Assembly: GCA_903915535.1 (NCBI GenBank)
Contig: CAIWTJ010000002.1
Coordinates: forward strand, 1 to 39,669
Length of the DNA: 39,669 bases
Reading direction: 5' to 3'
From: Enhydrobacter aerosaccus
GTDB lineage: Bacteria; Pseudomonadota; Alphaproteobacteria; Reyranellales; Reyranellaceae
Positions 2,266-38,904 of the stretch are shown here, piece by piece. Each line of letters opens with the position of its first letter. The stretch's first letter is position 1. The position numbers and the translations under genes are program-made. Below the pieces are notes generated by a model. The model ran no database searches. It saw only the letters and a program-made list of their open reading frames with translations, and was not told where the DNA came from.

Positions 2266-4014
2266 CTAGACCGGCACGAGACCGGCTTCTCTCGCCTTGA
2301 TCTGAAGGGCGAGATACTTCGAGTAGATGCGGCACTGCGCAAGGCTGCCGGCGATGAACCACAGGCCGGGCTGCGGCGTTGCCACGAAAGTGTTGCGCAA
2401 CTCCTGTCCCGCGCCAAAGCCCCAGATCGGCCCGACCTTCTTCGTCACGTCGGCACCGAACAACCGGGTGACCAGCTCTTCCTGATCCTTGTAGCCGGTC
2501 GCCAGCACGATCAGGTCCGCCTTTAGGGCCTGGCCCGAGCGCATCAGCGCGCCTTCGGCCGTGAAGCGCTCGATGTCGGCAAACTGCACCAGGCCGATCT
2601 TTCCGGCGATCAGCAGGTCCGAACAGCCGACATTGAAATAGTAGCCGCCGCCGCGCGTCAGGTAGAGGTACTGCCAGCCCGTATTGTCGTCGCCGTAGGC
2701 AAGCTTGAAGCCGATCTTTTCCAGCCCGTCGAGCAGCTTCCTGTCCAGACCCTTGGCTTTCTCGGTCAGGAGCTGGTGGGTCTTGCGGCCGAGTGCGAGC
2801 GGTGTCGCAACGGTGATCAGGTCGCAATCTTCGAGCGGCGGGCCTTCTTCGTAAAGCGCGTAGGGAAGTTGCGCCGACGGCTCGACATTCACCACCATGG
2901 TTGGGCTGCGCTGCACCATCGTCACGTGCGCACCGCTCGATTCGAGGTCCTGCGCGATGTCATGCGCGCTGTTGCCGGTGCCGATGACGAGGACGTTCCT
3001 GCCCTTCCAGGCATCGCCGTCCTCATATCGGCTCGAATGCAGCACAGTACCCGCGAACGCCTCGAGCGTCGGAATCGCCGGAATGTTGGGAATGCCGCTG
3101 ACGCCGGTCGCCAGGACGACGTGGCGCGGCTTCATCTCGCGCTCGCTACCATCGGCGCGCCGCAGCTTCACGGTCCAGCGTCCTGCATTGTCGTCGTATC
3201 GGCCACCGAGAAATTCCGTGCGCGTCCAGAAATTGAGCTCGAGGCTATCGACATAGGCTTCGAACCAGCCCGCCAGCTTGTCCTTCGGAATGTAGGTCGG
3301 CCAGGTCGGCGGGAACGGCATGTAAGGCAGGTGATTGACGTGCACCTGGTTGTGCAGCACCAGCGCGTGATAGCGCTTGCGCCAGTTGTCGCCGATGCGC
3401 TCCTCGCGATCGACGATCAGCGTGTCGATGCCGAGCTGCCGCAGCCGTGCCGCGATGGAGAGACCGGCATGGCCGCCGCCCACGACGATCACGTCGGGAT
3501 CGTGACCGGCATACGTTTCGGCCTGCCGACGCTGGTCGAGCCAGTTGGGGCCCCGAAAATCGCGCGAGTAGGCTTCGCCCGTCGGCCGCATGCGGCCGAC
3601 ATGCTCCTCGTGGCCCTTCAGTTCGTCGAGCGCCGTGAGCAGCGTCCACGCCTTGTCGCCGATCAGCCGAACGACGCCGCTGCCACGGCCCTGCGCCGTC
3701 TCAAACTTGAAAATCGCCTCAACGACACCATCGCGGCCCGCGCGCATGACCTCGCGCGGCGGCGTACGTGCCGTGTCGACGACAATACCCGATGCCTTGG
3801 TGGCTGCCGCCAACGCCCCGGCAATCGTCGGCGCACCGCTCACCGTGTCGATGCGCCAGGTGAGCGCCAGCACATCGCGCCAGTGACTGTCGTCCTGAAA
3901 CAGACCGCGCAACTGCGCAGCGTCGCCGCTCGCCAGCGCGCGCTCGAAGCGCGCCAGCCAGTTCGCGACGTCGCGTGCGGGGTCAGACGACCGGGCTTGC
4001 GCCGCCGTCGACAT
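2266..4014 (-). CDS. FAD/NAD(P)-dependent flavin monooxygenase-like protein with N-terminal NTF2-like domain
   Basis: 582 residues from the chosen ATG; an in-frame ATG at 4047 would add 11. Residues ~15-130 resemble an NTF2/SnoaL-like domain (WLARFERALASGDAAQLRGLF, then SHWRDVLALTW). The FAD Rossmann motif VVGGGHAGLSIAARL is at about residues 177-191. The second, NADPH-binding motif VLVIGTGNSAHDIAQDLE lies near residue 355, and FAGTVLHSSRY just before it matches the FxGxxxHxxx fingerprint of flavin monooxygenases. A C-terminal ATG motif (LIVLATGYKDQ) is present. These enzymes use NADPH and O2 to oxygenate a carbonyl, amine or sulfur. The start overlaps the end of the SDR gene by 32 nt, so this is the last gene of the xdhAB-SDR-FMO operon. 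The substrate is unknown. Confidence 0.85.
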   Translation of the reverse strand: MSTAAQARSSDPARDVANWLARFERALASGDAAQLRGLFQDDSHWRDVLALTWRIDTVSGAPTIAGALAAATKASGIVVDTARTPPREVMRAGRDGVVEAIFKFETAQGRGSGVVRLIGDKAWTLLTALDELKGHEEHVGRMRPTGEAYSRDFRGPNWLDQRRQAETYAGHDPDVIVVGGGHAGLSIAARLRQLGIDTLIVDREERIGDNWRKRYHALVLHNQVHVNHLPYMPFPPTWPTYIPKDKLAGWFEAYVDSLELNFWTRTEFLGGRYDDNAGRWTVKLRRADGSEREMKPRHVVLATGVSGIPNIPAIPTLEAFAGTVLHSSRYEDGDAWKGRNVLVIGTGNSAHDIAQDLESSGAHVTMVQRSPTMVVNVEPSAQLPYALYEEGPPLEDCDLITVATPLALGRKTHQLLTEKAKGLDRKLLDGLEKIGFKLAYGDDNTGWQYLYLTRGGGYYFNVGCSDLLIAGKIGLVQFADIERFTAEGALMRSGQALKADLIVLATGYKDQEELVTRLFGADVTKKVGPIWGFGAGQELRNTFVATPQPGLWFIAGSLAQCRIYSKYLALQIKAREAGLVPV

Positions 4015-4777
4015 TGATCGCCACCCCGGTGATGAAAGAGCCCGCATCGGAGCAGAGGAAGCACGCCATGCGCGCGAACTCCTCGGCCTTGCCCATGCGG
4101 CCGAGCGGAATGCGGCCCGCCATGCCCTTCAGGAACTCTTCATAGGTCTTGCCCGCGCCCGCCGCAGTCTTGTGGCGGCGCGCCCACTGGTCGCTCTCGA
4201 TCAGGCCGACCAGCATCGCGTTCACCAGCACGCCGTGCTGCGCATTCTCCTGGCTCATCGCCTTGGTGAGCGCGAGGCCGGCGGCACGGCTGACCGACGT
4301 CGGCGTCGAGTTGGCGCCGGGCGCCTTGGCGCCGATGTTCAGCACGTTGACGACCCGGCCCCACTTGCGCTCGCGCATGCCCGGAAAGGCAAGACGACAG
4401 AGTCGAATGGCGGCAAACAGCTTGAGGTCGAGATCGCCCTGCCAATCCTCGTCGGTCACGGTGTCGAACGCCTTGGCGTGGCTGATGCCGGCGTTGTTCA
4501 CGACGATGTCGACCTTGCCGAAGTCGGCCTGGATCTTCTTCCAGGTCTCGGCGATCGGTGCTGCCTTGGAGACGTCGCAGGAGTAGCCCTCGACCTTGGC
4601 GTTGGTCTTGCCCGCGGCCTTCTGCACCTCCGCCTTGGCAGCGGCCAGGGCATCGGCCTTGCGCGCCAGCATGGCGACCGACGCGCCGGAAGCTGCGAAT
4701 TCCTTGGCCATGGCGAGACCGAGACCGGTGCTGCCGCCCGTGATCACGGCCACGCGACCGTCCATGCGTACGTCCAT
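3983..4777 (-). CDS. SDR-fold protein with replaced catalytic triad
   Basis: 264 residues of short-chain dehydrogenase/reductase fold. The cofactor motif TGGSTGLG (residues ~14-21) and NNAG near residue 92 are intact, so NAD(P) binding looks possible. The catalytic Ser/Tyr/Lys positions are not. Aligned by eye with FabG, VNVLNIGAKAPGANS followed by TPTSVSR keeps the exact spacing but has Asn for Ser, Thr for Tyr and Arg for Lys. Classic hydride-transfer catalysis is therefore unlikely as described for the family. The start has a good GGGAGG 5-6 nt upstream. The gene begins 12 bp after the molybdenum subunit gene and overlaps the monooxygenase gene, so it is part of that operon. It may be a divergent SDR subfamily with a different mechanism or a binding role. 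The fold is sure, the activity is not. Confidence 0.88.
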   Translation of the reverse strand: MDVRMDGRVAVITGGSTGLGLAMAKEFAASGASVAMLARKADALAAAKAEVQKAAGKTNAKVEGYSCDVSKAAPIAETWKKIQADFGKVDIVVNNAGISHAKAFDTVTDEDWQGDLDLKLFAAIRLCRLAFPGMRERKWGRVVNVLNIGAKAPGANSTPTSVSRAAGLALTKAMSQENAQHGVLVNAMLVGLIESDQWARRHKTAAGAGKTYEEFLKGMAGRIPLGRMGKAEEFARMACFLCSDAGSFITGVAINVDGGASPVV

Positions 4778-4789
4778 CGAATCCTCCCG

Positions 4790-7096
4790 TTATTGTTTCA
4801 GTGTAGCCAGAGCCGCCAAAATGCGCTCGGGCGTCGCCGGCGCATCCAACCGCACTGCGGTCCTGTCATCGCCCCTCCTGTCGGAGGCTGTCGACGCGAT
4901 GGCGTCCTTCAAGGCCGTCCAGACCGCCGTCGCCAACAGGAGCGGCGGCTCGCCGACCGCCTTGGAGCGGAAGATCGTCGCTTCCTTCGACGGTGCGTTG
5001 TCGAGCAGCGTCACGTTGAAGATCGCGGGCGCGTCGCGGCTGCCGGGAATCTTGTAGGTGGACGGTCCGACCGTACGGAGACGGCCCTTGGCGTCCCACC
5101 ACAATTCCTCGCAGGTGAACCAACCCTGGCCCTGCACGAAGGCGCCTTCGATCTGGCCGAGATCGATCGCGGGATTGAGCGAGCTGCCGCAATCCTGGAT
5201 GAGGTCGGCGCGCAACACGCGGCTCTCGCCGGTCAGCGTATCGATCGCCACTTCGGCGGCGGCAGCGCCGTAGGAGAAATAGAAGAACGGCCGGCCGCGC
5301 ATCGCCACACCGTCCCAGTGAATCTTCGGCGTCCTGTAGTAGCCGGTCGACGACAGCGACACGCGGCCCAGATAGCAGAGCTTCACCAGCTCGTTGAAGC
5401 TGATCACCTGGTTGCTGCCCGGTTTGGCGATGCGCACGGCGTTGTCGGCAAACTCGATGTCGCCCGCGTCGGCGCCGAAATGCCCGGCAGCGAAGGCGAT
5501 CATGCGTTGCTTGATCGTGTCGGCCGCCTCGTAGGCCGCCCAGCCGTTCAAGTCGGAGCCGGTCGAGGCCGCGGTCGGCGAGGTGTTCGGCACTTCGGCG
5601 GTCGAGGTGGCCGTGGGACGAATGCGTTCGATGTCGACCTTGAACACCTCCGCCACGACCTGCGCCACCTTGATGAACAGCCCCTGCCCCATCTCGGTAC
5701 CGCCGTGGTTCAGCCGGATCGAGCCGTCGGTGTACACATGCACCAGCGCACCCGCCTGGTTCATGTGCGGGATGTTGAAGGAAATGCCGAACTTCAGCGG
5801 GAACAGGCCGAGCCCGCGCTTCAGGACAGGGCAGGTCTTGTTGAAGGCGGCAATCTCGGCGCGACGGCGCTCGATGGACGCCTCGCGTTTCAGCTCCGAC
5901 CAGACCCTCGGCAGATGGTTCTCCTCGACCTTCTGGCCGTAGGGAGTCTCGTCGCCTTTTTCGTCGTAGAAGTTCAGCGCACGGACCGCGTCGGCATCGC
6001 GGCCGAGATGGCGCGCGATACGGTCGATCGCGTCTTCCATGACCACGACGCCCTGCGGGCCACCGAAGCCGCGGAACGCGGTGTTCGACTGCTTGTTGGT
6101 CCTGCAGGCGTAGCCGACGGCGCGGACGTGGGGAAGCCAATAGGCGTTGTCGACATGCGTGAGCGCGCGGGCGATCACGCCCGGTGTCATGTCGAGACTC
6201 CAGCCGGCGTCGGCCGCCAGCACGGCGTCGAGCGCCAACACGCGCCCCTCGTCGTCGAAGCCCACGGTGTAGCGATAGTCGAAGCCGTGGCGCTTGCCGG
6301 TGGCGATCATGTCGATCTCGCGCGGCAGGCGGAACTTCACCGGCTTGCCGGTGCGATGTGCCGCCAGGGCCGCCGCCGCGGCGACCCACGAGGCGTTGCT
6401 CTCCTTGCCGCCGAAGCCGCCGCCCAGCCGGCGCACGACCGCCGTCACGCGATTGAAGTCGCAGCCCAGGATCTGGGCGCAGACATGCTGGACCTCGGTC
6501 GGATGCTGCGTCGAGGAGTGAACGACGAGATCGTCATCCTCTCCCGGGAAAGCGAAGGCAATCTGGCCCTCGAGGTAAAAATGCTCCTGGCCGCCGACGC
6601 TGAACTCGGCGCTCAGCGTGTGGGGCGCGGTCTTCAACGCCGCCTCCGGATCGCCGCGCTGGAGCGTCGATGGCGCCTGCACATAGGCCCGCCGCGTCAA
6701 CGCGGTCGCAATATCGAGAATAGCGTCGGTTTCTTCGACCTCGATCACCGCCCTCGCCGCGCCGGCGCGTGCCGCATCGAGCGTCGCGGCAACCACGATC
6801 GCCAGGGGCTGGCCGACATACTCGACCCTGTCGGCCGCAAACAGCGGCTCTTCCTTACCGGGGCCTGCAATGCTGTTGCGACCGGGAATGTCGCCTGCAT
6901 CGAACGTCGCCACCACGCCGGCCATCGATGCCGCCCCCGTCAGATCGAGCTTGCGCAGGCGGCCCGACGCCACGGGACTCAAGACCAGCGCGGCATGCAA
7001 GGTGCCCGCGGGTTCGGGCATGTCGTCGATATAGAGCGCCTGTCCCGTGGCGTGCTTCAGCGCGCTATCGTGCCGGACGGATTTGTGGACGCTCAT
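4790..7096 (-). CDS. xdhB: Xanthine dehydrogenase-type molybdenum hydroxylase, molybdopterin-binding subunit
   Basis: 768 residues, the usual length for XdhB. The N-terminal a/b hammerhead domain (AVRHDSALKHATGQALYIDDMPEPAGT-like region, residues ~5-130) is followed by the molybdopterin domains. Visible family motifs are GGGFGGKES, TAFRGFGGPQGVVVMED, EMGQGLFIKVAQVVAE and the C-terminal SKAVGEPPLLLATAVW, which carries the catalytic Glu of the GxGE-like region. STGYYRTPKIHWD is also close to known xanthine dehydrogenases. The enzyme hydroxylates purines or related N-heterocycles with water as oxygen source, passing electrons to its partner subunit. The ATG overlaps the stop of the small subunit gene (ATGA). 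Because an SDR and a monooxygenase follow in the same operon, a substrate other than xanthine is possible. No xdhC chaperone gene is in the window. Confidence 0.9.
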   Translation of the reverse strand: MSVHKSVRHDSALKHATGQALYIDDMPEPAGTLHAALVLSPVASGRLRKLDLTGAASMAGVVATFDAGDIPGRNSIAGPGKEEPLFAADRVEYVGQPLAIVVAATLDAARAGAARAVIEVEETDAILDIATALTRRAYVQAPSTLQRGDPEAALKTAPHTLSAEFSVGGQEHFYLEGQIAFAFPGEDDDLVVHSSTQHPTEVQHVCAQILGCDFNRVTAVVRRLGGGFGGKESNASWVAAAAALAAHRTGKPVKFRLPREIDMIATGKRHGFDYRYTVGFDDEGRVLALDAVLAADAGWSLDMTPGVIARALTHVDNAYWLPHVRAVGYACRTNKQSNTAFRGFGGPQGVVVMEDAIDRIARHLGRDADAVRALNFYDEKGDETPYGQKVEENHLPRVWSELKREASIERRRAEIAAFNKTCPVLKRGLGLFPLKFGISFNIPHMNQAGALVHVYTDGSIRLNHGGTEMGQGLFIKVAQVVAEVFKVDIERIRPTATSTAEVPNTSPTAASTGSDLNGWAAYEAADTIKQRMIAFAAGHFGADAGDIEFADNAVRIAKPGSNQVISFNELVKLCYLGRVSLSSTGYYRTPKIHWDGVAMRGRPFFYFSYGAAAAEVAIDTLTGESRVLRADLIQDCGSSLNPAIDLGQIEGAFVQGQGWFTCEELWWDAKGRLRTVGPSTYKIPGSRDAPAIFNVTLLDNAPSKEATIFRSKAVGEPPLLLATAVWTALKDAIASTASDRRGDDRTAVRLDAPATPERILAALATLKQ

Positions 7097-8475
7097 AGTG
7101 CCTCGACCTCGACCGGAATTTCCGGATCGGCAACGCGCAGCGCGAGCCGGCGCAGCAGATTGGCCGCAACGTGAAGGCGATACTCTGCCGTACCCCGCCA
7201 ATCGTCGATCGGCTGGAAGTCCCGGGTGACGGCACGGGCCGCGCCTTCGAAGTCGCCTTTCAGGAGAGCCGCCTCGACCTGCGGCGCGCGCCGGGCGGTG
7301 GCCGCCATGCCGCCGAAGCCGGTTCGCACCTCTTCGATCTTCCCGTCCTTGAGACGCAGGCGATAGGCGGCGGCCACGGTCGAGATGTCCTGATCGCGCC
7401 GCTTGCTCACCTTGTCGCAGAAGAAAGCCTCGCCCGGCCACAGGCGCGGCAGCGTCAGCGACTGAATCACCTCGTCCGGCGCGAGCGCGGTCTTGCGATA
7501 GTCGAGGAAGAATTCTTCCAGCGGCAACTCGCGCGGGCCGCGCAGGGAGACGAGCTTGAGCCGCGCTTCCAGCGCCAGCAGCACCGGCGGCATGTCGCCG
7601 ATCGGCGAGGCCGTGCCGATATTGCCGCCGATCGTGCCCAGGGTGCGGATCTGTCGCGAACCGAGACGGGCGAGATATGTGCGCAGCGCCGGGAAGGCCG
7701 CGACCAGGACCGGCGTCGCCTGCACATAGGGCACCGCGGCGCCGAGCGCGATCTCGTCCTTGCCGTCGTCGATCGCCGTCAGCTCGGGAACGTACGCGAC
7801 GTGGATCACCGTCTTGGGTGGCGTACGTCCACGGCTGGCCAGCAGGCCGAGATCGGTGCCGCCCGCCAGCAAAAGCGCCTCGGGATGCCGTGCCCGCAAG
7901 GCCAGAAGATCGGCGAGCGACCGCGGCGCAAAGAAAGTCCCGTCGAACGCGGCCGACGCAGTACGCGCGGGCGGCGCGGAGACGGGTTCGGGCGCCAGGC
8001 CCGCCACCTTGACCATGGCCTCGACGATCGGGCGATAACCGGTGCAGCGGCAGAGATTGCCGGCCAGCGCATCGTGGATGATGCCGGGATCGGCCGCCTC
8101 GCCGCCGGTCGCGAAGGCGTAGGCCGACATGACGAAGCCCGGCGTGCAGAAGCCGCATTGCGTGGCGTCGGCGTCCACCATGGCGGTCTGTACCGGATGC
8201 GGCGCGCCGTCCCGGCCCGCAAGCCCCTCGACGGTACGCACCGACCGTCCATCCATCTGGCCCAGCAGCGCGATGCAGGCGTTGATCGCCTCCCGCCTTC
8301 CGTCGCCGCCTTCCAGCACCACCGTGCAGGCGCCGCAGTCGCCCTCGGCGCAGCCTTCCTTGGTGCCCTTCAGCCCGCGGCTGTCGCGCAACCAGTCGAG
8401 CAGGGTCGTCATGGGCGAGACGTCCGCGACCTCGACCGGGCTGTCGTTCAGAATGAAGCGTATGCGATCCGTCAT
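7093..8475 (-). CDS. xdhA: Xanthine dehydrogenase-type small subunit (2Fe-2S and FAD domains)
   Basis: 460 residues. An N-terminal plant-type 2Fe-2S ferredoxin domain shows GCAEGDCGACTVVLEG. A second 2Fe-2S domain shows QCGFCTPGFVMSAY and GNLCRCTGYRPIVEAM. The rest is the FAD-binding CO-dehydrogenase-flavoprotein fold, with LLAGGTDLGLLASRG near residue 220 and TIGGNIGTASPIGDMPP. The subunit carries electrons from the molybdenum centre through the two clusters to FAD and NAD or another acceptor. An in-frame ATG at 8490 is also possible; neither start has a clear Shine-Dalgarno. The gene is first in the minus-strand operon (8475 down to 2266) and faces the deacetylase genes across a 73-bp gap that should hold both promoters. 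Confidence 0.9.
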   Translation of the reverse strand: MTDRIRFILNDSPVEVADVSPMTTLLDWLRDSRGLKGTKEGCAEGDCGACTVVLEGGDGRREAINACIALLGQMDGRSVRTVEGLAGRDGAPHPVQTAMVDADATQCGFCTPGFVMSAYAFATGGEAADPGIIHDALAGNLCRCTGYRPIVEAMVKVAGLAPEPVSAPPARTASAAFDGTFFAPRSLADLLALRARHPEALLLAGGTDLGLLASRGRTPPKTVIHVAYVPELTAIDDGKDEIALGAAVPYVQATPVLVAAFPALRTYLARLGSRQIRTLGTIGGNIGTASPIGDMPPVLLALEARLKLVSLRGPRELPLEEFFLDYRKTALAPDEVIQSLTLPRLWPGEAFFCDKVSKRRDQDISTVAAAYRLRLKDGKIEEVRTGFGGMAATARRAPQVEAALLKGDFEGAARAVTRDFQPIDDWRGTAEYRLHVAANLLRRLALRVADPEIPVEVEAL

Positions 8476-8548
8476 GCGAACAGGATGCAAGCAGTTGCGC
8501 GCTAGTCAACCGCGTGATGCACTCACAGGCCACAACGAAGAGAAATCA

Positions 8549-9448
8549 ATGGACCCGTACCGGTTCGGCTATTCCCCCATCGTCTCCCGACCAAAACTCT
8601 CCTGGCCCAACAACGCCAAGGTTGCGGTCTGGGTCTGCCCGAACATCGAGCACTATGAGTACATTCCGGCCGAAGTGCGCGTCAGGAACCCCTGGCCGCG
8701 CATGCCGCACCCCGACGTTCTGGGCTACGGCGGCCGCGACTACGGCAACCGCGTGGGCCTGTGGCGCATGTTCGAGGTGCTCGACAAGCACTCGATCCGC
8801 TGCACCGTCTCGCTCTCGATGTCGGTGATCGAGATGTACCCAGAGATCCTGGAGGCCATGGAGGCCCGGCGCTGGGAGTACATGAGCCACGGCTTTTTCA
8901 ACACGCGCTATCACTGGGGCTATTCGCCCGAGGAAGAGCTCGAGGTCATCGAGCACAGCAAGGCAACGCATCTCCGCCTCACCGGCCGCAAGCTGCGCGG
9001 CTGGTTCTCGCCCGCCGTGTCCAACACGATGAACACGCCCGACCTCGTGAAGCAGGCCGGCCTCGAATATTTCTGCGATTTCTATCACGACGACCAGCCG
9101 ACGCCGCTCGCGACCAAGCACGGGCCGCTGATCCACGTGCCCTATTCGATGGATATCAACGACGCGATGATCTACCGCCAGCCGGTCGAGGCCGAGGAGT
9201 TCGGCCAGATGATCGTCGATCACTTCGACACGGTGTATCGCGAAGGCAACGAGAACGGCCGCGTGATGTGCATCGCGCTCCATCCCTACATGATGGCGGC
9301 CCCTCATCGCCTGAAGCATCTCGACAAGGCGCTCTCGTATATCCGGCAGCACAAGGACGCCTGGATCTGCACGGCCGAGGAGATCCTCGACTCCTATACG
9401 CAGAACGGACTCGCAGCCTACCAGAAGCATCTCGGGAAGGAGGCGTAG
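8549..9448 (+). CDS. PuuE/allantoinase-like polysaccharide deacetylase family protein (first of two)
   Basis: 299 residues of the NodB-like deacetylase superfamily, closest in style to PuuE allantoinases and related cyclic-amide hydrolases. Visible landmarks are YGGRDYGNRVGLWRMFEVLD, then EYMSHGFFNTRYHWGYSPEEE where classical deacetylases carry the HxxxH zinc motif, then GWFSPAVSNTMNTPDLVKQAG, and CIALHPYMMAAPHRLK near the C-terminus. The canonical TFDDG and HS/TxxH metal motifs are absent, as in PuuE, whose family is described as not needing a metal. The start codon follows a weak GAAGAG. The gene is divergent from xdhA and only 3 bp from its paralogue. A role in opening a hydantoin- or lactam-like ring is an inference from this context. 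Confidence 0.85.
   Translation: MDPYRFGYSPIVSRPKLSWPNNAKVAVWVCPNIEHYEYIPAEVRVRNPWPRMPHPDVLGYGGRDYGNRVGLWRMFEVLDKHSIRCTVSLSMSVIEMYPEILEAMEARRWEYMSHGFFNTRYHWGYSPEEELEVIEHSKATHLRLTGRKLRGWFSPAVSNTMNTPDLVKQAGLEYFCDFYHDDQPTPLATKHGPLIHVPYSMDINDAMIYRQPVEAEEFGQMIVDHFDTVYREGNENGRVMCIALHPYMMAAPHRLKHLDKALSYIRQHKDAWICTAEEILDSYTQNGLAAYQKHLGKEA
9437..9443 (+). promoter_or_regulatory. Strong ribosome binding site inside the first deacetylase gene
   Basis: AAGGAGG within the last codons of the first deacetylase lies 8 nt before the ATG at 9452. It supports re-initiation and balanced production of the two paralogues. Confidence 0.7.
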
Positions 9449-9451
9449 ACG

Positions 9452-10372
9452 ATGACAAGCTCAGTTCCAAAGAACCCGCCGCCGCTCAAGCCCGGCATCG
9501 ACAATCCCTGGTACGACTACATCCCGTATCCGAAGCGGCCGCGGCTCACCTGGCCCAAGAACGCTCGCGTCGCCTTCTATGTGATCCTGCATCTCGAATA
9601 CTACGAGCTCGAGGGGCCGGAGAGCGCGGTGCGCGACAGCCGCTTCGTGGGCGAATTCGGCAACTACAAGCCCGACTTCCGCACCTGGACGCAGCGCGAG
9701 TACGGCAACCGCACCGGCATCTTCCGTGTGTTCGACGTGCTCGATCGCTATCAGATCAAAGCGGGCCTCGCGACCAACGCAATGGCTGCCGAGCGCTACC
9801 CGTTCCTGGTCGAACAGGCGAAGAAGCGCGGCTACGAGTTCATCGCCCACGGCACCTCGGCCAACCGCATGCTGAGCTCCAAGATGAGCGAGGCCGAAGA
9901 AAAGGCCGAGATCGCGTCGAGCACCGCCGCGATCGAGAAGGCCGCAGGCACCAAGCCGACGGGCTGGCTCGGCCAGGAATATGGCGAGAGCCAGCGCACG
10001 CCGCAGCTCCTGGCCGACGCCGGCCTCGACTACGTGCTCGACTGGCCGAACGACGACCAGCCCTATCCGATGAAGGTCGGGAAGAAGTTCGTCTCGATGC
10101 CGAACCAGCCCGAGTGGGACGACGTGCAGCAGCTTTGGCTCCGGCGCATCAACACCACGCGCTATCCCGATCTGGTGTCGGATGCGTTCGAGCTGTTGCA
10201 CCAAGAAGGCGGCCAGGTGTTCAGCCTGTCGATCCATCCCTGGCTGATGGGCATGGCGCATCGCATAAAATATCTCGACGAGGCGCTCAGGCGCATCGAG
10301 CGCTTCGGCAACGTCTGGCACGCGACGCCCGGCGAGATCGCGGCGTATTACGCCAAGACGATGATGACTTAG
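9452..10372 (+). CDS. PuuE/allantoinase-like polysaccharide deacetylase family protein (second of two)
   Basis: 306 residues, clearly paralogous to the gene before it. The two share the opening RPxLxWPxNAxVAxxV, a DYGNR/EYGNR motif before the first long helix, an SHG/AHG motif replacing the zinc-binding HxxxH, a central GWF/GWL motif, DDQP, and ALHPYMM/SIHPWLM with a following HR. It differs in having a longer N-terminal arm (KPGIDNPWYDYIPYPKRP) that is seen in allantoinase-like members. The strong RBS at 9437-9443 and the 3-bp gap indicate one transcript. Two subunits of a hetero-oligomer, or two enzymes for successive or alternative substrates, are both possible. The 65-bp palindrome just downstream probably ends transcription. 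Confidence 0.85.
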   Translation: MTSSVPKNPPPLKPGIDNPWYDYIPYPKRPRLTWPKNARVAFYVILHLEYYELEGPESAVRDSRFVGEFGNYKPDFRTWTQREYGNRTGIFRVFDVLDRYQIKAGLATNAMAAERYPFLVEQAKKRGYEFIAHGTSANRMLSSKMSEAEEKAEIASSTAAIEKAAGTKPTGWLGQEYGESQRTPQLLADAGLDYVLDWPNDDQPYPMKVGKKFVSMPNQPEWDDVQQLWLRRINTTRYPDLVSDAFELLHQEGGQVFSLSIHPWLMGMAHRIKYLDEALRRIERFGNVWHATPGEIAAYYAKTMMT

Positions 10373-10447: not shown

Positions 10448-11278
10448 CTACTCTGCCGCCTTCGTGAACCCCTGGTCCTGACGCAGGCGGAACAGGCGGA
10501 CGGCTTCGGCGTGCGCCGCCTGTGCCTCGGCCGACATCGGGGTCTTCAATCGCGTCTCGGGAAGGAAATGCCCATAGCGATCCTGGCCTCGCACCAGCAA
10601 CGCGCTGGGCTTCACCGGCCCGAGCGGCCGCACATGCGCGGGCACGAAGCTGATGCCCAGTCCCATGCGGCGGTCGTCGTTGTCGTTGCCGGGAGAGCAA
10701 TGCACCAGCGCCGTGTGATGCAGCGACATCTCTCCCGCCTTGAGCGGCATCGACACGCCCTTCTCGTGGTCGAAGCGGTCGCTGATGCCTTGGCCGCGCT
10801 TGATCATGTCGTGCGGCGTAGGCTTGTCGTCATGCTCGATCATCGGCAGGCGATGCGTGCCCGGCACGACCCGCATGCAGCCGGCCAACTCCGACGCTTC
10901 CGAGAGTGCGACCCAGGCCGTCACATGTTCCAGCGGATCGAGAAAGAAATAGGCGCCGTCCTGGTGCCAGCGGACATAGGCCGGCGTGTGCGCCTCCTTG
11001 ATCCACATGGTCGAGTGATAGACGAGGATATCCGGCCCGATCACGTCCTCGACGGCGTCCAGCACCTTCGGGTGATGCACCAGCGTGTCGGCCCAACCGT
11101 AGAGTAGGTACGACTTGCTCTTCTCGGGAAAATCCAGCGGATGGCCCTGCAGCTTCTCCCAATGCTCGAGATCGGCGCGCAGCGCGCGTACTTCGGCGGC
11201 GTCCAGCACCGGTACGGGATAGGCAAAGCCATCGCGCTTGTACTGTTCGACCTGGGCGGGCGACAAAATCCTGGGCAT
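10448..11278 (-). CDS. Phytanoyl-CoA dioxygenase (PhyH) family protein
   Basis: 276 residues. PhyH proteins are non-heme Fe(II)/2-oxoglutarate-dependent oxygenases that hydroxylate diverse small molecules. The iron-binding HxD is visible in RWHQDGAYFFLDP near residue 125. The distal His lies in SLHHTALVHCSPGN and the 2-oxoglutarate-binding Arg in DDRRMGLGISFVPAHVRP. VTAWVALSEASELAGCMRVVPGTHR is a typical strand between them. The N-terminal QVEQYKRDGFAYPVPVLDAAEV matches the family opening. The gene stands alone on the minus strand. Its end is shared with the palindrome after the deacetylase genes, and its start is 87 bp from the divergent binding-protein gene. Its substrate may relate to the neighbouring importer, but this is a guess. 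Confidence 0.88.
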   Translation of the reverse strand: MPRILSPAQVEQYKRDGFAYPVPVLDAAEVRALRADLEHWEKLQGHPLDFPEKSKSYLLYGWADTLVHHPKVLDAVEDVIGPDILVYHSTMWIKEAHTPAYVRWHQDGAYFFLDPLEHVTAWVALSEASELAGCMRVVPGTHRLPMIEHDDKPTPHDMIKRGQGISDRFDHEKGVSMPLKAGEMSLHHTALVHCSPGNDNDDRRMGLGISFVPAHVRPLGPVKPSALLVRGQDRYGHFLPETRLKTPMSAEAQAAHAEAVRLFRLRQDQGFTKAAE

Positions 11279-11365: not shown

Positions 11366-12592
11366 ATGGCCAAGAAGCAGAAATTTCCGGTTTCGCGTCG
11401 CGGGTTCATCGCCGGATCGGGCGTGTTGGCGGCGGGCACGATGGGCTTCCCCCTGATCGGCGGCGCACAGGCTAAGTCCGTCAAGGTCGGCATCATCCAT
11501 CCCGTGACCGGCTTCGTGGCCTTCGCCGGCAGCCAGGGACGCATGGGCGCTACCATGGCGGTCGAGGACATCAACAAGGCGGGCGGCATCAAGTCGATGG
11601 GCGGCGCCAAGCTCGAGCCGCTGTTCGGCGACAGCCAGTCCAAGGTCGAAGTCGGCGTGGCCGAGGTCGAGAAGATGAACGAACAGGGCGTCGCGGCCTA
11701 TATCGGCTGCTACCAGAGCCCGGTCGGGATCGCGGCTAGCCAGGCTGCCTCGAAGTACGGCACGCCGTTCCTGATCGACGTCGGCGCCTCCGACCTGATC
11801 GTGTCGCGCGGTCTCAAGAACGTGTTCCGCCTCAAGCCGGGCTTCGGCGCCTGCGTCGACCAGGGCATCGACCTGCTGAGCAGCCTCAACAAGAGCGCCA
11901 ACAACGTGGCCAAGTCGGCTGTCATCGTCCACGAGTCGAGCGAGTTCGGCACCGGCACGGCCAAGCTGCTGGCCGGCAAGCTGCCGGGCATCAACATCGC
12001 CGTGAAGGAAGTGATCGCGCACGACAATCCGACGCGCAACTTCGACAACATTGCGCTTCGCATCCGCTCGCTGCAGCCCGACCTCGTGATGATGTCCAAC
12101 TACCAGGACGAATACACGCTGCTCGCGCGCACGCTCTACCAGCAGAAGGTCAACGTCGCGGGCTTCTTCTCGATCCTGGGCGGCGGCTTCAATTACAAGT
12201 TCGTCCAGGCGATGCCCGACGTGTCGCAATACATGATGGACGTGAACCACTGGTACAACCCGAAGTCGGCGAAGGCCCAGGAGATGAAGAAGCGTGTCGT
12301 CGCGACCGGCGCGCTGTTCACCTTTGAAGTCTACCTTGCCTACACCGTGGTGTCGCTGCTGGCCGATGCACTCGAGCATGCGGGATCGGCCGACAAGGAA
12401 AAGCTGACGGCGGCGCTCAACGCCTCGACCTTCGTGCCGGAACTGATGCCCTACGGGCCGACCAAGTTCGTGAATGGCCAGAACCAGGGCGGGCGTCCGG
12501 GCGTCATGCAGGCGATCAAGGGCGACATCCTGCTGGTGGCGCCCGACGACGTCGCCGAAGCCAAGGCCGTGTTCCCCAAGCCCAAGCTCTAA
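11366..12592 (+). CDS. Branched-chain-type ABC transporter substrate-binding protein, Tat-exported
   Basis: 408 residues of the Leu/Ile/Val-binding (Peripla_BP_6) family. The N-terminus has a twin-arginine signal (SRRGFIAGSGVLAAGTMGFP) and a likely cleavage site after GGAQA, so it should fold before export to the periplasm. The mature part begins KSVKVGIIHPVTGFVAFAGSQGR, the standard first strand, and AYIGCYQSPVGIAASQAA is the second. A GGGGAAA stretch lies before the ATG at 11366; an in-frame TTG at 11351 is less likely. It heads the five-gene importer operon through 15879. The ligand is unknown. Such systems also take up amides, urea-like compounds and aromatic acids. Confidence 0.92.
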   Translation: MAKKQKFPVSRRGFIAGSGVLAAGTMGFPLIGGAQAKSVKVGIIHPVTGFVAFAGSQGRMGATMAVEDINKAGGIKSMGGAKLEPLFGDSQSKVEVGVAEVEKMNEQGVAAYIGCYQSPVGIAASQAASKYGTPFLIDVGASDLIVSRGLKNVFRLKPGFGACVDQGIDLLSSLNKSANNVAKSAVIVHESSEFGTGTAKLLAGKLPGINIAVKEVIAHDNPTRNFDNIALRIRSLQPDLVMMSNYQDEYTLLARTLYQQKVNVAGFFSILGGGFNYKFVQAMPDVSQYMMDVNHWYNPKSAKAQEMKKRVVATGALFTFEVYLAYTVVSLLADALEHAGSADKEKLTAALNASTFVPELMPYGPTKFVNGQNQGGRPGVMQAIKGDILLVAPDDVAEAKAVFPKPKL

Positions 12593-12612
12593 CACCAGAC
12601 GCAATCCAGGCG

Positions 12613-13485
12613 GTGTTCGATCCAGGGTTCATCCTCGCCGGCGTGCTGAACGGCCTGCTGGCCGGCGGCATCTATGTGTTGGTGGCGGTGGGCCTCACGC
12701 TGATCTACGGCGTGCTGCACATCATCAACTTCGCGCATGGCAGCCTCCTGATGCTCGCCATGTACGCAGTGTTCTTCCTCTGGAAGCTCGCGGGACTCGA
12801 TCCCTATATGTCGTTGCCGATCGTCATCGTCGGCGCGTTCGTCGTGGGCTTCCTGCTCTATCGCGGCCTGATCGGCCGGTTCAGCCACGGCCGCGATGAA
12901 AACATCCTGCTGATCACGCTCGGCGTCTCGATCGTGGCCGACAACGGTGCGCTGCTCTTCTTCGGCGGCAACACCGAGACGGTCGACGTGCCCTACGCCG
13001 GCCAGATCATCGAACTGGGCGTGGCCTTCCTGCCGCTCGCCAAGGTGATCTCTTTCGTCGCGTCCCTGGTGATCTGCCTCGCCCTCGGCCTGTTCATGGC
13101 CAAGACCGACACCGGCAAGGCGATCCGGGCCGTCGCCAAGGAACGCCAGGGCGCGCGGCTGGTCGGCATCGACGTCGAAAAGATCTTCGCCATTTCCTAT
13201 GGTATCGGCATCGCCTGCCTGGGTGCCGCGGCCTGCCTGCTGATGCCGACCTTCTATGTGACGCCGCAGTCGGGTTACGCCTTCGTGCTGGTCGCCTTCA
13301 CCACCGTGGTGCTGGGCGGCATGGGCAGCTTCGTGGGCGCGGCGGTCGGCGGCTTCCTGATCGGCGTCACCGAATCGCTGGGCGGGTTGTTCCTGGGCGA
13401 ACAGCTCGGCCAGATCGGCATCTCGCTGATCTTCATCCTGATCCTGCTGTTCCGCCCGACCGGCCTGTTCGGGGCAAAGGCGTGA
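12613..13485 (+). CDS. livH: Branched-chain-type ABC transporter permease (LivH)
   Basis: 290 residues of integral membrane permease. The opening LAGVLNGLLAGGIYVLVAVGLTLIYGVLHIINFAHGSLLML is diagnostic of LivH (the GLTLIYGVxxxINFAHG motif), here read in two parts. It has about eight hydrophobic segments and a C-terminal VVLGGMGSFVGAAVGGF motif that contacts the ATPases. The start is a GTG at 12613, 20 bp after the binding-protein stop. It forms the membrane channel with the LivM partner 10 bp downstream. Confidence 0.92.
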   Translation: MFDPGFILAGVLNGLLAGGIYVLVAVGLTLIYGVLHIINFAHGSLLMLAMYAVFFLWKLAGLDPYMSLPIVIVGAFVVGFLLYRGLIGRFSHGRDENILLITLGVSIVADNGALLFFGGNTETVDVPYAGQIIELGVAFLPLAKVISFVASLVICLALGLFMAKTDTGKAIRAVAKERQGARLVGIDVEKIFAISYGIGIACLGAAACLLMPTFYVTPQSGYAFVLVAFTTVVLGGMGSFVGAAVGGFLIGVTESLGGLFLGEQLGQIGISLIFILILLFRPTGLFGAKA

Positions 13486-13495
13486 GGAGCGGGGC

Positions 13496-14456
13496 ATGAG
13501 CACGCGCGTGCAGATCCTGCTCGTGATCGGCTTTGCTGCCGCGGTCATCTATCCCTGGCTGGTGCCGAACTATCTCATCACGGTCGGCATGCTGATGTTC
13601 TTCTCGGCCTTCATCGGCCAGGCGTGGAACGTGTCCGGCGGCTTCGCGGGCCAGACCTCGTTCGGCCATGCGGTGTTCTTCGGCACCGGCGCCTACACCT
13701 CGACCATCCTGCAGGTGACGCACGGCTGGAACCCGTGGCTTTCCTGGGCCGCGGCGATGGCGATGGGGGCGCTGGTCGGCTGCCTGATCGCGATGCTGGC
13801 CTTCCGCGCCGGCCTGCGCGGCTCGTACTTCGCGCTGATTACGCTGGCCTTCGCCGAGGTCTTCCGCATCTTGGCCAACTCGGTGGGTTTTACGCGCGGC
13901 GGTTTGGGAATGTTGATCAAGGCCGATGCGCGACCGGAGAACCTGCAGTTTCGCGACCCCGTCTGGCCCTATTACCTCGCCTTCGCGCTCTGCCTGATCT
14001 CGCTGTTCATCGCGTGGCGCCTGACGCGCAGCCGCTTCGGCGCGCGTCTGATCGCCATCCGCGAGAACGAGGACGCGGCGCGCGCACTGGGCATCGACGT
14101 CTTCGCGGAAAAAGTGAAGGTGCTCACGCTTTCGGGCGCGATGTGCGCGGCGGGCGGCACGTTCTACGCGCAGAAGTATCTCTACGTCGATCCCACCATC
14201 GCCTTCGGCATCGACAAGTCGGTCGAGATGCTGCTGGTGACCATGGTGGGCGGCGCCGGCACGATCTTCGGCCCGCTGATCGGTGCGATCGCGCTGACCG
14301 GCATCAACGAGATCACCCGCTGGGCCGCCGGCGTCATCCCGGCGCTGAAGAATGTCCAGCCCCTCAGTTTGATCGTGTACGGCATCATGCTCATGCTGAT
14401 CGTGGCACGCCTGCCGGATGGTTTGATGAGCCTGTTCGCCAGAAAGGCGCGGCGCA

Positions 14457-14464
<8 letters not shown>
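13496..14464 (+). CDS. livM: Branched-chain-type ABC transporter permease (LivM)
   Basis: 322 residues. LivM-type permease with many hydrophobic segments. Visible landmarks are AWNVSGGFAGQTSFGHAVFFGTGAYT near residue 42, GLRGSYFALITLAFAEVFRIL, and the cytoplasmic EAA-like region IRENEDAARALGIDVFAEKVKVLTLSGAMCAAGG, which couples to the ATPases, then TMVGGAGTIFGPLIGA. A GGAGCGGGG stretch precedes the ATG. Its last 8 nt overlap the start of livG, so translation is probably coupled. Confidence 0.92.
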
Positions 14465-15879
<1,415 letters not shown>

Positions 15880-30913: not shown

Positions 30914-30957
30914 GGGATAGCATCATGGACCTAATCGAGCGTCAGGGGGAAGAACGC

Positions 30958-32238
30958 ATGGCGAAATCGCCCAACCAGTATTCAGCCAGCCAGGCCGTGC
31001 AGCGCATGGCCGACAAGCGGCTGAAGGCCGTCGACATGGTCGAGGCCTGCCTCGAACGCATCGACAGGCGCGAGGGCCAGGTCCACGCCTGGGAGGCGAT
31101 CGACGCCGAGGGCGCGCTGAAGCGGGCCGCGATGCTCGACAAGCGTGCGAAGCCCGTGGGCCCGCTGCACGGCATTCCGCTCGCGGTGAAGGACATCATC
31201 TCGACCAGGACCATGCCCACCACCTGCGGCTCGCCGATCTATCGCGACCATGTCGCGGGCAAGGATGCCGCCTGCGTGACGCAGCTCGTGAACGCGGGCG
31301 CCATCGTGCTCGGCAAGTCGGTCACGACCGAGTTCGCGGGCGGCCATGCCGGCAAGACGCACAATCCGCACAACGTCCGCCATACGCCCGCGGGCTCGTC
31401 GTCGGGATCGGCCGCCGCGGTCGCCGACTTCATGGCGCCGATCGGCTACGGCACGCAGACCTCGGGCTCGGTGATCCGGCCCGGCGCTTTCAACGGCGTG
31501 GTGGCCTACAAGGGCACCTACGGCTGGGCCGACATGACGGGCGTGAAGACCTATTCCAAGAGCCTCGACACGCTGGGCTTCTTCGCGCGCGAGGCCAACG
31601 ACCTGGCGCTCATCCGCGCCGCCTACGGGCACGCGCCGGCCGATCCGCCGCCGAAGGGCCGCGCGCCCCGCATCGGCTTCTGCCGCACGCGCTGGTGGGA
31701 CATGGCCGATCGCTATAACCAGAAGAACATCGAGACCGCCGCCAGCACGCTCCGCGCCGCCGGCGCCAAGGTCCGCGCGTGGGACATGCCCGAGAGCTGG
31801 GACGCGCTGATCGAGGCGCACAATCGCGTCATGACCAAGGAAGCGACGTTCCATTACGGGCCGGAGCGCGAGCGCTTCCCGCACCTGCTCTCGGTCGGGC
31901 TCACGAGCGCGCTCGAAGTGGGCGACGCCGTCACGCGCAAGCAGCTGACCGACGCCAAGAAGCGCCGCGAGCGCGCCAAGGCCGAGCTCGCGGGCGTGTG
32001 GGACACGTTCGACATCCTGCTGGCGCCGTCGGCGCGCGGCGAGGCGCCGGCGGGTCTCGGCTACACCGGCGATCCCCTCTTCAACCGCTTCTGGACGCTG
32101 CTCGGCTCGCCCTGCATCACGCTGCCCTTCAACACCGGGCCGTTCGAGTTGCCGCTCGCGGTGCAGCTGATCGGCCCGCACAAGGGCGACGACCAGCTCA
32201 TCGCCTGGGCGCGCTGGGTGGAAGAGCACCTCCGTTGA
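30958..32238 (+). CDS. Amidase signature family protein
   Basis: 426 residues. The Ser-cisSer-Lys triad can be placed: Lys in PLAVKDIISTRTMPTTCGS (near residue 80), the first Ser in the glycine/serine loop AGSSSGSAAAVADF, and the nucleophilic Ser in QTSGSVIRPGAFNGVVAYKGTYG. The loop reads SSSGSAAAV, not the usual GGSSGGSAAAVA, but the required residues are present. It should hydrolyse an amide to acid and ammonia. A GGGGGAAG precedes the ATG at 30958. The stop overlaps a TTG start of the aspartate dehydrogenase gene, so the two are coupled. An Asn- or Asp-amide-type substrate is only a guess from that pairing. Confidence 0.9.
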   Translation: MAKSPNQYSASQAVQRMADKRLKAVDMVEACLERIDRREGQVHAWEAIDAEGALKRAAMLDKRAKPVGPLHGIPLAVKDIISTRTMPTTCGSPIYRDHVAGKDAACVTQLVNAGAIVLGKSVTTEFAGGHAGKTHNPHNVRHTPAGSSSGSAAAVADFMAPIGYGTQTSGSVIRPGAFNGVVAYKGTYGWADMTGVKTYSKSLDTLGFFAREANDLALIRAAYGHAPADPPPKGRAPRIGFCRTRWWDMADRYNQKNIETAASTLRAAGAKVRAWDMPESWDALIEAHNRVMTKEATFHYGPERERFPHLLSVGLTSALEVGDAVTRKQLTDAKKRRERAKAELAGVWDTFDILLAPSARGEAPAGLGYTGDPLFNRFWTLLGSPCITLPFNTGPFELPLAVQLIGPHKGDDQLIAWARWVEEHLR

Positions 32239-33005
32239 GACTGGGCCTGATCGGCTACGGTGCCATCGGCAAGCATGTCGAGGCGGCCGGGCTCGAAAAC
32301 ATCGAGCTGGTCTCGGTGCTGGTGAAGCGGCCGCGCAACGAGGGCAAGCTGACGCACGAGCCCGAACGCTTCTTCGCGCACAAGCTGGACGCGGTGGCCG
32401 AATGCGCCGGCCATGAGGCCGTTCGCGTCCATGGCCAGCGCGTGCTGGAGAGCGGTGCGGACTTCCTCGTGACGTCCGTCGGCGCCTTCACCGACACTGC
32501 CCTGTTCGACCGGCTGCTGGCCGCCGCCAAGGCGAGCGGCACACGGCTGATCCTGCCGTCGGCCGGCATCGGTGCGCTCGACATCCTGAGCAGCGCCGCC
32601 GTCGGTGGGCTGGAGAGCGTCACCGTCACCGTGCGCAAGGATCCGTCGGCGTGGAAAGGCACGATCGCGGAGACGCTGGTCGATCTCGACTCACTCACGG
32701 CCCCGCACACCGTGTTCGACGGACCGGTGCGCGAGGGCGCCCGGCTCTATCCGCAGAACGTCAACATCTCGGCCGCCGCCGCGATCGCCGGCATCGGTCT
32801 CGACCGGACCCGCGTGGTGATCGTGGCCGATCCCACCATCACCACCCACATTGTCGAGCTCGAAGCCAAGGGCGCGTTCGGCCGCTTCACCTTCAGGGAA
32901 GACGTGGCCGTCAGCGAGGAGAACCGCAAGACCGGCAAGCTGGTCGCGATGGCGATGGTGAAGTCGGTGCGCCAGCTTGCCTCGTCCCTGGTGGTCGCGG
33001 CCTAG
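32235..33005 (+). CDS. Aspartate dehydrogenase family protein (NadX-like)
   Basis: 256 residues from a TTG that overlaps the amidase stop (TTGA). The Rossmann motif GLIGYGAIGKHV opens the protein. LPSAGIGALDILSSAAVGGLESVTVTVRKDPSAWKG and NVNISAAAAIAGIGLDRTRVVIVADP follow the L-aspartate dehydrogenase pattern, and the catalytic His is probably that in TITTHIVELEAKGAFGRFTF. The family catalyses NAD(P)-linked deamination or reductive amination of aspartate and can feed NAD biosynthesis or nitrogen use. The 44-bp gap upstream of the amidase would serve both genes. It ends one base from the convergent Bug gene. Confidence 0.87.
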   Translation: MRLGLIGYGAIGKHVEAAGLENIELVSVLVKRPRNEGKLTHEPERFFAHKLDAVAECAGHEAVRVHGQRVLESGADFLVTSVGAFTDTALFDRLLAAAKASGTRLILPSAGIGALDILSSAAVGGLESVTVTVRKDPSAWKGTIAETLVDLDSLTAPHTVFDGPVREGARLYPQNVNISAAAAIAGIGLDRTRVVIVADPTITTHIVELEAKGAFGRFTFREDVAVSEENRKTGKLVAMAMVKSVRQLASSLVVAA

Positions 33006-33006
33006 A

Positions 33007-33972
33007 TCAGTTCTCCGGCTTGATGTTGAAGTCGCGGATGATCTTGCCCCACTTCAGGCGATCCTCGGCGATCTCCTTGTCGAACTGCTCCTTGGTGCCG
33101 ACCACGATCTGAAGCCCGTTGTCGGCGAACTTCTGTTTCAGCTCCGGCGACGACACCGCCTTCACGAGCTGGTCGTTCCAGAACTTCACCATCTCCGGTG
33201 ACATGCCGCCGGGGCCGACCAGTCCGAACCAGTTGTGGATCACGAAGTCCTTGAGGCCGGTCTTCGAGATCACCGGCACCTCGGGCAGGAGCGGCGACGC
33301 TGAGTCCGCGCCGTAGCCGATGGCGCGCAGGCCGCCGCCCCGGATCTGGCCCATGAACTCGGGCATGTTGCCCCACATCAGGTCGACGCGGCCGCCGGTC
33401 ATGTCGACGATCGCGGGCGCGCCGCCGCGATAGGGCACCTGCGTCAGCTTGGTGCCGGTCAGCGCCATGAACAGGGCGCAGGAAAGCTGCTGGCTGGAAC
33501 CCGAGCCCACGGTGGCGCAGGTCACCTTCTCCGGGTTGGCCTTGGCCGCGTCCGCCACGTCCTTCCAGTCCTTGAACGTCGTGTCGCGGCCGACCACGAG
33601 GATGTTGTAGACGCCGGCCACGTTGCCGATCGTCGTCAGGTCCTTGTCGACATCGATGTTGGTTTTCACCATCTGCGGCAGCACCGTCATCATCGCCATC
33701 GAGGCGAGCAGGATGGTGTGGCCGTCGGGCGGCGACTTGGCCGTCTCGAGGGCCGCGATCATGCCGGAGGCACCCGCCTTGTTGTCGACCACCACCGTGC
33801 GGCCGATCTGCTTGGTGAACTGTTCGGCCAGCAGGCGCCCGATGATGTCGGAGCTGCCGCCCGCCGGGAAGCCGTTGATGAACCGCACGTCCTTGGTCGG
33901 GAAGGTCGCCTGCGCCCACGCGGTGCCTGTCATTGCCAACACAGCCACGAGCGCCGTGACAAAACGCTTCAT
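33007..33972 (-). CDS. Bug family (TctC-like) substrate receptor, second copy
   Basis: 321 residues. A Sec signal (KRFVTALVAVLAMTGTAWAQATF) is followed by FPTKDVRFINGFPAGGSSDIIGRLLAEQFTK and RTVVVDNKAGASGMIAALETA, family blocks shared with the gene at 29367-30365. VPYRGGAPAIVDMTGGRVDLMWG is the ligand-loop block. GGAGGA lies 5 nt before the ATG. It follows the enolase-superfamily gene by 20 bp, so the receptor probably imports that enzyme's acid substrate. No membrane partner genes are present. Confidence 0.9.
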   Translation of the reverse strand: MKRFVTALVAVLAMTGTAWAQATFPTKDVRFINGFPAGGSSDIIGRLLAEQFTKQIGRTVVVDNKAGASGMIAALETAKSPPDGHTILLASMAMMTVLPQMVKTNIDVDKDLTTIGNVAGVYNILVVGRDTTFKDWKDVADAAKANPEKVTCATVGSGSSQQLSCALFMALTGTKLTQVPYRGGAPAIVDMTGGRVDLMWGNMPEFMGQIRGGGLRAIGYGADSASPLLPEVPVISKTGLKDFVIHNWFGLVGPGGMSPEMVKFWNDQLVKAVSSPELKQKFADNGLQIVVGTKEQFDKEIAEDRLKWGKIIRDFNIKPEN

Positions 33973-33992
33973 CGCTTCCTCCGCTTTGTCGC

Positions 33993-38902: not shown

Positions 38903-38904
38903 GT

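Follow-up and report, generated by a model that had tools for sequence, protein, structure and literature searches.

A 39,669-nucleotide stretch of DNA from Enhydrobacter aerosaccus (Reyranellaceae; contig CAIWTJ010000002.1 of GenBank assembly GCA_903915535.1), referred to below as the window and forming part of a 5.8 Mb draft genome, raises the question of why the genes of a xanthine dehydrogenase (XDH)-type molybdenum hydroxylase, xdhA and xdhB, are followed by a short-chain dehydrogenase/reductase (SDR) and a flavin-containing monooxygenase (FMO) and face two genes for PuuE-like hydrolases, PuuE1 and PuuE2 (Table 1). An earlier note on this DNA had read the group as a plausible single route for an N-heterocycle other than a purine, possibly fed by a nearby ATP-binding cassette (ABC) importer. 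The gene positions and spacings given there are exact: xdhA and xdhB overlap by 4 nt, 12 bp separate xdhB from the SDR gene, the SDR and FMO genes overlap by 32 nt, and PuuE1 lies 73 bp from the divergent xdhA and 3 bp from PuuE2. The reading preferred here, with a probability of roughly 0.6, is one of juxtaposition: a purine XDH unit, a PuuE1-PuuE2 imide or ureide unit and a few hitch-hikers would lie side by side here, an arrangement fixed in most Reyranella.

Despite its unusual neighbors, XdhAB is most likely an ordinary purine XDH, since its sequence scores as a true XDH, the active-site residues are kept, it is the only copy in the genome, and canonical PuuD and PuuE are encoded elsewhere. 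XdhB reaches 1091.5 bits against the equivalog family TIGR02965 (cut-off 849.5) and XdhA 483.2 bits against TIGR02963 (cut-off 467), and XdhB aligns end to end with the Rhodobacter capsulatus enzyme (1jro_B, E=6e-224), with which the window's protein also shares its two-subunit architecture. Equivalents of R. capsulatus E232, R310, F344, F459 and E730 are retained and invariant in all 20 sequences compared; E232, R310 and E730 are presumably the active-site Glu/Arg/Glu, and F344 and F459 the Phe pair around the purine. Other molybdenum hydroxylase matches in the window genome are far weaker, at no more than about 30% identity over long stretches. A non-purine identity of XdhAB, as the earlier note had proposed, was thus rejected, given the family scores, the conserved active site and the lack of a second copy.

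The remaining purine genes were sought in 75 genomes of the family, 65 of which carry xdhB. A full match to PuuD-type urate oxidase (E 1e-100 or better) was found in 71 and a canonical PuuE over its cut-off in 67, the window genome included in both cases; the PuuD Pfam cut-off is passed in 74, by weak partial matches only in G001, G003 and G064 (G and L numbers denote genomes and loci). 2-Oxo-4-hydroxy-4-carboxy-5-ureidoimidazoline (OHCU) decarboxylase, UraD, occurs in 70, and the copy read is a fusion with 5-hydroxyisourate (HIU) hydrolase. The proposed first unit would accordingly be xdhAB as the single ordinary XDH, supplying urate to PuuD, the UraD-HIU hydrolase and the canonical PuuE, all encoded elsewhere. 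Unlike the R. capsulatus XdhAB system (1JRO; TIGR02963-TIGR02965), the window locus has no xdhC next door, as had been remarked before; a local xdhC was rejected, and no match over the TIGR02964 cut-off was found in any of the 75 genomes (weaker matches in 72), although 65 have XdhB, so that this locus is no exception in lacking it. As a side observation, the OHCU decarboxylase-HIU hydrolase fusion stands at L125:7144-14340 beside a succinate-semialdehyde-dehydrogenase-like gene and a branched-chain-type importer, and the same gene clusters recur in L126 and L129.

PuuE1 and PuuE2 probably are ring-opening amidohydrolases, judging from their models, and their name "polysaccharide deacetylase" is probably misleading. 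The AlphaFold2 model of PuuE1 (pLDDT 81.7, pTM 0.86) and the predicted structure of PuuE2 (pLDDT 86.7, pTM 0.86) both have the NodB-type fold of PuuE allantoinase, their first match in the Protein Data Bank (PDB) being 3cl6 with TM scores of 0.80 and 0.81-0.82, respectively. HpPgdA (3QBU) follows at about 0.7, a poorer match than the PuuE structures, and then come classical deacetylases of carbohydrate esterase family 4 (CE4), whose TM scores are about 0.4-0.6 when normalized to the query and reach 0.76 when normalized to the shorter target, versus about 0.8 both ways for PuuE. The CE4 metal motif is His-His-Asp, and PuuE is reported not to depend on a metal (PMC10967932). Neither window protein has the complete triad, the second His of motif 2 being replaced by Asn118 in PuuE1 (invariant in 22/22) and by Ala137 in PuuE2 (19/19); this second metal-binding His is absent from 3CL6 as well. 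That the two are true polysaccharide deacetylases with a role in the cell envelope would agree with their membership in Pfam PF01522, but is highly improbable in view of the weaker CE4 fold match and of plasmid-borne homologs (see below) whose neighbors are amide hydrolases and transporters. The ring-opening type suggested in the earlier note is thus supported, both by the models and by the amide-hydrolyzing neighbors present in 11 of 12 plasmid loci.

A closeness in fold to PuuE does not make the pair allantoinases. PuuE1 scores 136.1 bits and PuuE2 94.0 bits against TIGR03212, far below the family cut-off of 424.6; both are only 22-27% identical to PuuE allantoinase and, unlike it, are usually paired. 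As the genome's missing allantoinase they were rejected, because a canonical PuuE is encoded elsewhere. The fold, together with their place beside the only XDH of the genome, could still be taken to mean that they hydrolyze some further purine-derived ureide, such as a side product of allantoin or hydantoin type, in an extended purine salvage cluster. This is quite improbable given the low scores, the canonical PuuE over its cut-off elsewhere and the 12 annotated plasmid loci, in which a purine-enzyme name appears only on the molybdenum hydroxylase of Arthrobacter, and one locus has, about 9.5 kb off, the pyrimidine-utilization gene rutA. Also comparable are the HpPgdA-related cyclic imide hydrolases, HxnM of Aspergillus and AAY98498 of Pseudomonas putida, NodB-type ring-opening enzymes that are partnered by an amidase according to one report (PMC9304392); the likeness of HxnM to the present pair is by description only. 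Separately, the window genome (G000) has 18 PuuE-like matches, several of them clustered on single contigs (C96, C43, C285 and C274).

The PuuE pair, rather than its association with xdhAB, is what recurs outside Reyranella. The set of PuuE1 loci comprised the best 80 of 245 relatives, namely 53 Reyranella-type loci (at least 81% identity) and 27 more distant ones, seven of the latter (L201-L206 and L217) apparently from the same family; distances were taken between the ends of tblastn matches, and gene counts refer to the DNA around each locus. PuuE1 has PuuE2 on its own strand at no more than 300 bp in 51/53 Reyranella-type and 22/27 more distant loci (7/7 from apparently the same family and 15/20 from others), which makes the pair the constant part of the locus. 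No PuuE2 was scored in two Reyranella-type loci, apparently L194 and L171, where the contig stops inside PuuE1 or shortly past it; in the other five distant loci the PuuE2 homolog is on the opposite strand or about 6 kb off. Gene orders read from lists of open reading frames show, on an Alcaligenaceae contig (L208), a GntR-type regulator, PuuE1, PuuE2, an MmgE/PrpD homolog and a counterpart of the window's importer (58-69% identity). On the second contig, from Comamonadaceae (L224), the importer is again similar and faces a row of genes: PuuE2, an MmgE/PrpD homolog, two more PuuE-like genes, PuuE1, and those for an isochorismatase-family hydrolase, an Asp/Glu racemase-family protein and a PhyH-type dioxygenase.

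On plasmids, 12 of 71 matching records were viewed, with unannotated records and near-duplicates skipped; L241 and L243 among them share nearly the same gene order. The tandem pair is present in 10 of these loci, Aminobacter and Streptomyces having a single gene. By annotation, an isochorismatase-family hydrolase stands directly upstream of PuuE1 in eight (Variovorax, where it is labeled "cysteine hydrolase", Terrarubrum, Salipiger, Burkholderia, Comamonas, Sphingobium, Acidiphilium and Sphingomonas), and an asparaginase (Arthrobacter) or amidase (Aminobacter, Agrobacterium) adjoins in three more; the Streptomyces locus is annotated with none of the three enzyme types. LeuCD-like genes are accompanied by HMG-CoA-lyase genes in the plasmid loci of Sphingobium, Sphingomonas and Acidiphilium, and by isocitrate-lyase-family genes in those of Sphingobium and Sphingomonas and, on the opposite strand, in that of Burkholderia.

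Neighbors within 6 kb of PuuE1 were also counted by tblastn, with seeds drawn partly from the counted loci and against 15 control loci that are all from the window's own family, not taxon-matched, and deliberately include XDH loci. Isochorismatase-type hydrolases were found in 8/12 plasmid loci, 6/27 distant loci (4/25 without the seed loci) and 0/15 controls, amidases in 4/12, 5/27 and 2/15, racemases in 1/12, 6/27 and 0/15, and MmgE/PrpD in 0/12, 5/27 and 0/15, respectively. An XDH-family gene was found in 1/12 plasmid loci, in none of the 27 distant loci, some of which are cut by contig ends, and, by design, in 4/15 controls. The seed loci were L222, L224, L235, L236 and L237 for isochorismatase, L210, L236, L240, L245 and L246 for amidase, L236 and L238 for asparaginase, L118, L123, L224 and L243 for racemase, L093 and L224 for MmgE, L237 and L241 both for LeuC and for the isocitrate lyase family, and L238 plus the window for the molybdenum hydroxylase.

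The frequent company of isochorismatase-type hydrolases, amidases, Asp/Glu racemases and MmgE/PrpD suggests that a cyclic imide or ureide is imported and its ring opened by hydrolysis, and the PuuE pair is probably the core of a distinct, widespread catabolic module. Briefly, the second unit proposed for the window would consist of PuuE1-PuuE2 together with, in many species, an ABC importer, MmgE/PrpD or PhyH. A small cyclic imide or ureide would be imported, PuuE1 and PuuE2, presumably acting together and without the classical NodB metal triad, would open its ring hydrolytically, and an amidase that varies between hosts would then cleave the half-amide. Succinimide, maleimides, glutarimide and hydantoins suggest themselves as candidate substrates if the pair is read as amidohydrolases. 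The LeuCD and isocitrate-lyase-family neighbors on some plasmids bring to mind dimethylmaleate hydratase and dimethylmalate lyase, and by this analogy would suit substituted maleimides. Such a module may partly explain how soil and water bacteria gain nitrogen from cyclic imides, and tandem "polysaccharide deacetylase" gene pairs on catabolic plasmids and chromosomes would carry a probably misleading name. In a literature search, no title or abstract opening among the matches listed describes such a PuuE-like pair, and no paper joining Reyranella with xanthine dehydrogenase was found in the library searched; in the accessible part of a paper on a Polaromonas plasmid, that plasmid is credited with a hydantoin racemase as well as a polysaccharide deacetylase, and the two are not linked.

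Within Reyranella, the gene order that the earlier note had described proved to be conserved for xdhAB, PuuE1, PuuE2 and the SDR gene. In 50 of the 53 Reyranella-type loci, far beyond chance, PuuE1 has a divergent xdhA match at a distance of 75-147 bp; of the other three, L150 and L199 extend over more than 7 kb in that direction without one, and L207 begins at PuuE1. An SDR of more than 75% identity is present in 44/53, several of the remaining loci being short contigs, and is regarded here as the usual neighbor. The adjacency of xdhAB and PuuE is thus old and stable, whatever functional meaning it may have. A thiolase, an HI0933-like flavoprotein, an S58 peptidase and a second SDR are often syntenic in the genus too, and since a larger block with apparently unrelated genes is kept there, synteny is weak evidence of one pathway. 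Upstream of PuuE1, alignment of 26 loci with MAFFT revealed a nearly invariant element (TTG, about 17 nt, TGxTGCACT, with few departures), which is also found in two loci without xdhAB. Among the variable members, MmgE/PrpD occurs within 6 kb of PuuE1 in 22/52 Reyranella-type loci and the PhyH-type dioxygenase in 11/52 (tblastn), homologs of the latter being present at 63-64% identity in two Comamonadaceae loci. In a minor variation, the gap between SDR and xdhB exceeds 1.1 kb in 20 of the 42 loci having both genes; a VOC-type gene and a TetR-type regulator lie there in the one of these that was read (L153:5154-6284) and in L130 (7360-8479), which comes from another set of loci. The window has neither gene, and in L117, too, xdhB is followed by a TetR gene.

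The alternative that all these genes form one pathway, in which XdhAB would yield a cyclic imide by oxidizing a lactam or N-heterocycle next to the nitrogen, SDR and FMO would adjust the oxidation state, PuuE1/PuuE2 would open the imide and the importer would feed the route, draws on the co-localization across the genus. A chemical precedent exists in the nicotinate breakdown of Aspergillus nidulans as described in the report already cited (PMC9304392): HxnS hydroxylates nicotinate and hypoxanthine, HxnX also takes part in the hxn set, HxnW is an SDR, HxnM is a cyclic imidase related to HpPgdA/PuuE, and HxnN is an amidase. The hxn regulon thus resembles the window in its XDH-type hydroxylase, monooxygenases, SDR and imidase, the amidase being a further hxn member. 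It differs in that its monooxygenases resemble NicC and 3-hydroxybenzoate hydroxylase rather than a type II FMO, and in that A. nidulans has, besides HxnS, a separate canonical XDH (HxA; same source), whereas the window genome has only one. Against a single pathway stand the unchanged XDH active site in all 20 sequences, the lack of a second XDH left for purines, the 27 more distant loci with no XDH-family gene within 6 kb, and the FMO, found at few loci (see below). Moreover, in G007, G008 and G038 PuuE1 faces the SDR gene with xdhAB similarity at chance level only. Of the earlier single-pathway proposal, then, the gene order and the ring-opening hydrolases were supported, but the non-purine XdhAB and the fixed FMO step were not. 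The fungal precedent, the co-occurrence of xdhB and PuuE1, and an Arthrobacter plasmid (both described next) keep this reading alive as an unlikely one.

Several observations weigh against the juxtaposition reading itself. Among the 75 family genomes xdhB never occurs without PuuE1 (both in 65, PuuE1 only in 4, neither in 6; Fisher 1e-6, uncorrected for kinship), which could be a sign of a functional bond. The two are on one contig in 52 of the 65 genomes having both; the other 13 are five drafts of the window's genus and eight genomes of genera g3 and g5, which in turn favor two separate units: there the PuuE pair has other neighbors, and xdhAB is found away from it, with the same thiolase close by at L117, L122 and L133 but not at L119, the fourth xdh locus read. 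All ten genomes without xdhB retain UraD, meaning that the urate genes were not lost together with XDH, and UraD was not found in the window genome's draft. On plasmid pLDW-10 of Arthrobacter crystallopoietes (L238), a three-subunit XDH-family molybdenum hydroxylase lies directly upstream of the PuuE pair, followed by an asparaginase, and the region further has an adenylate-forming enzyme, an XdhC family protein downstream and moaA; in view of this one independent case, an XDH-PuuE coupling may exist in Reyranella too. No isochorismatase, amidase or asparaginase homolog was detected by tblastn within 6 kb in the 52 Reyranella-type loci. Importer ATPases are not enriched within that distance (3/12 plasmid loci, 8/27 distant loci and 5/15 controls), a count that misses importers just past 6 kb, as in L208, L221 and L224. 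Lastly, the seed loci match by construction, so the neighbor counts are a lead, not a test.

A bolder, distinctly doubtful extension would combine both sides. PuuE1 and PuuE2 would be the two-protein, metal-independent ring opener of an unrecognized cyclic-imide module in Alpha- and Betaproteobacteria and on at least one actinobacterial plasmid. Its half-amidase would be of isochorismatase type, and on some plasmids (Sphingobium, Sphingomonas and Burkholderia) the module would include the LeuCD-like and isocitrate-lyase-family genes that substituted maleimides would call for; a molybdenum hydroxylase would have been recruited separately in Reyranella and Arthrobacter to make the imide from an N-heterocycle. 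If such recruitment were true, the cell's only XDH would serve two pathways.

The FMO is a lineage-specific addition or hitch-hiker of known kind. Its Pfam match is Pyr_redox_3/FMO-like, with no Pfam call for the NTF2-like domain, and its best PDB match, covering residues 14-579 of 582 and hence the N-terminal extension, is the type II FMO of Janthinobacterium svalbardensis (8acs_A, E=8.6e-120). The catalytic residues of that enzyme are His-216, Asp-217 and Tyr-458, and it oxygenates some ketones and sulfides (PMC10028610). With a numbering offset derived by hand, the window protein keeps the equivalents of His-216 and Tyr-458 and has Asn in place of Asp-217. Homologs of more than 65% identity stand at only 5/53 Reyranella-type PuuE1 loci. 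Across the family, homologs of at least 69% identity are found in 15/75 genomes, directly beside the SDR gene in five, with one to four genes between in four, and not beside it in six. As a core step of the locus, the role assigned to it earlier, the FMO was therefore rejected.

Table 1. Features of the xdhAB-PuuE locus and its flank in the window (coordinates in nt; a dot marks a feature without strand).
Feature	Position	Strand	Remarks
FMO, type II flavin-containing monooxygenase, N-terminally extended (SnoaL/NTF2-like)	2266..4014	-	Optional locus member; PDB 8acs_A
SDR, short-chain dehydrogenase/reductase	3983..4777	-	adh_short / adh_short_C2; usually adjoins xdhB, or PuuE1 where xdhAB is missing
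xdhB, xanthine dehydrogenase molybdopterin subunit	4790..7096	-	TIGR02965; MoCoBD_1/2; R. capsulatus 1jro_B
xdhA, FAD / 2Fe-2S subunit	7093..8475	-	TIGR02963; FAD_binding_5, Fer2
Divergent intergenic region, 73 bp, with conserved PuuE1-proximal element	8476..8548	.	MAFFT alignment
PuuE1, PuuE-like NodB-fold hydrolase, not a canonical allantoinase	8549..9448	+	Polysacc_deac_1; AlphaFold2 model
PuuE2, second PuuE-like hydrolase, paired with PuuE1	9452..10372	+	Polysacc_deac_1; predicted structure
PhyH-type dioxygenase, variable member	10448..11278	-	PF05721
Branched-chain amino-acid type ABC importer (substrate-binding protein (SBP), LivH, LivM, LivG, LivF)	11366..15879	+	Peripla_BP_6 for SBP (11366-12592); LivHMGF by similarity

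Elsewhere in the window, a tRNA-bound island was considered and rejected, there being no tRNA in it. Positions 30925-35132 hold a row of an amidase-signature enzyme, an aspartate-dehydrogenase-like protein, a Bug-type receptor (assigned by eye) and an enzyme of the mandelate racemase/muconate lactonizing family. At the window end (36845-39606), a hydantoinase/oxoprolinase A-type gene (PF01968, PF05378) lies beside a LivF-like ATPase, again assigned by eye, and is possibly part of another ring-opening locus.

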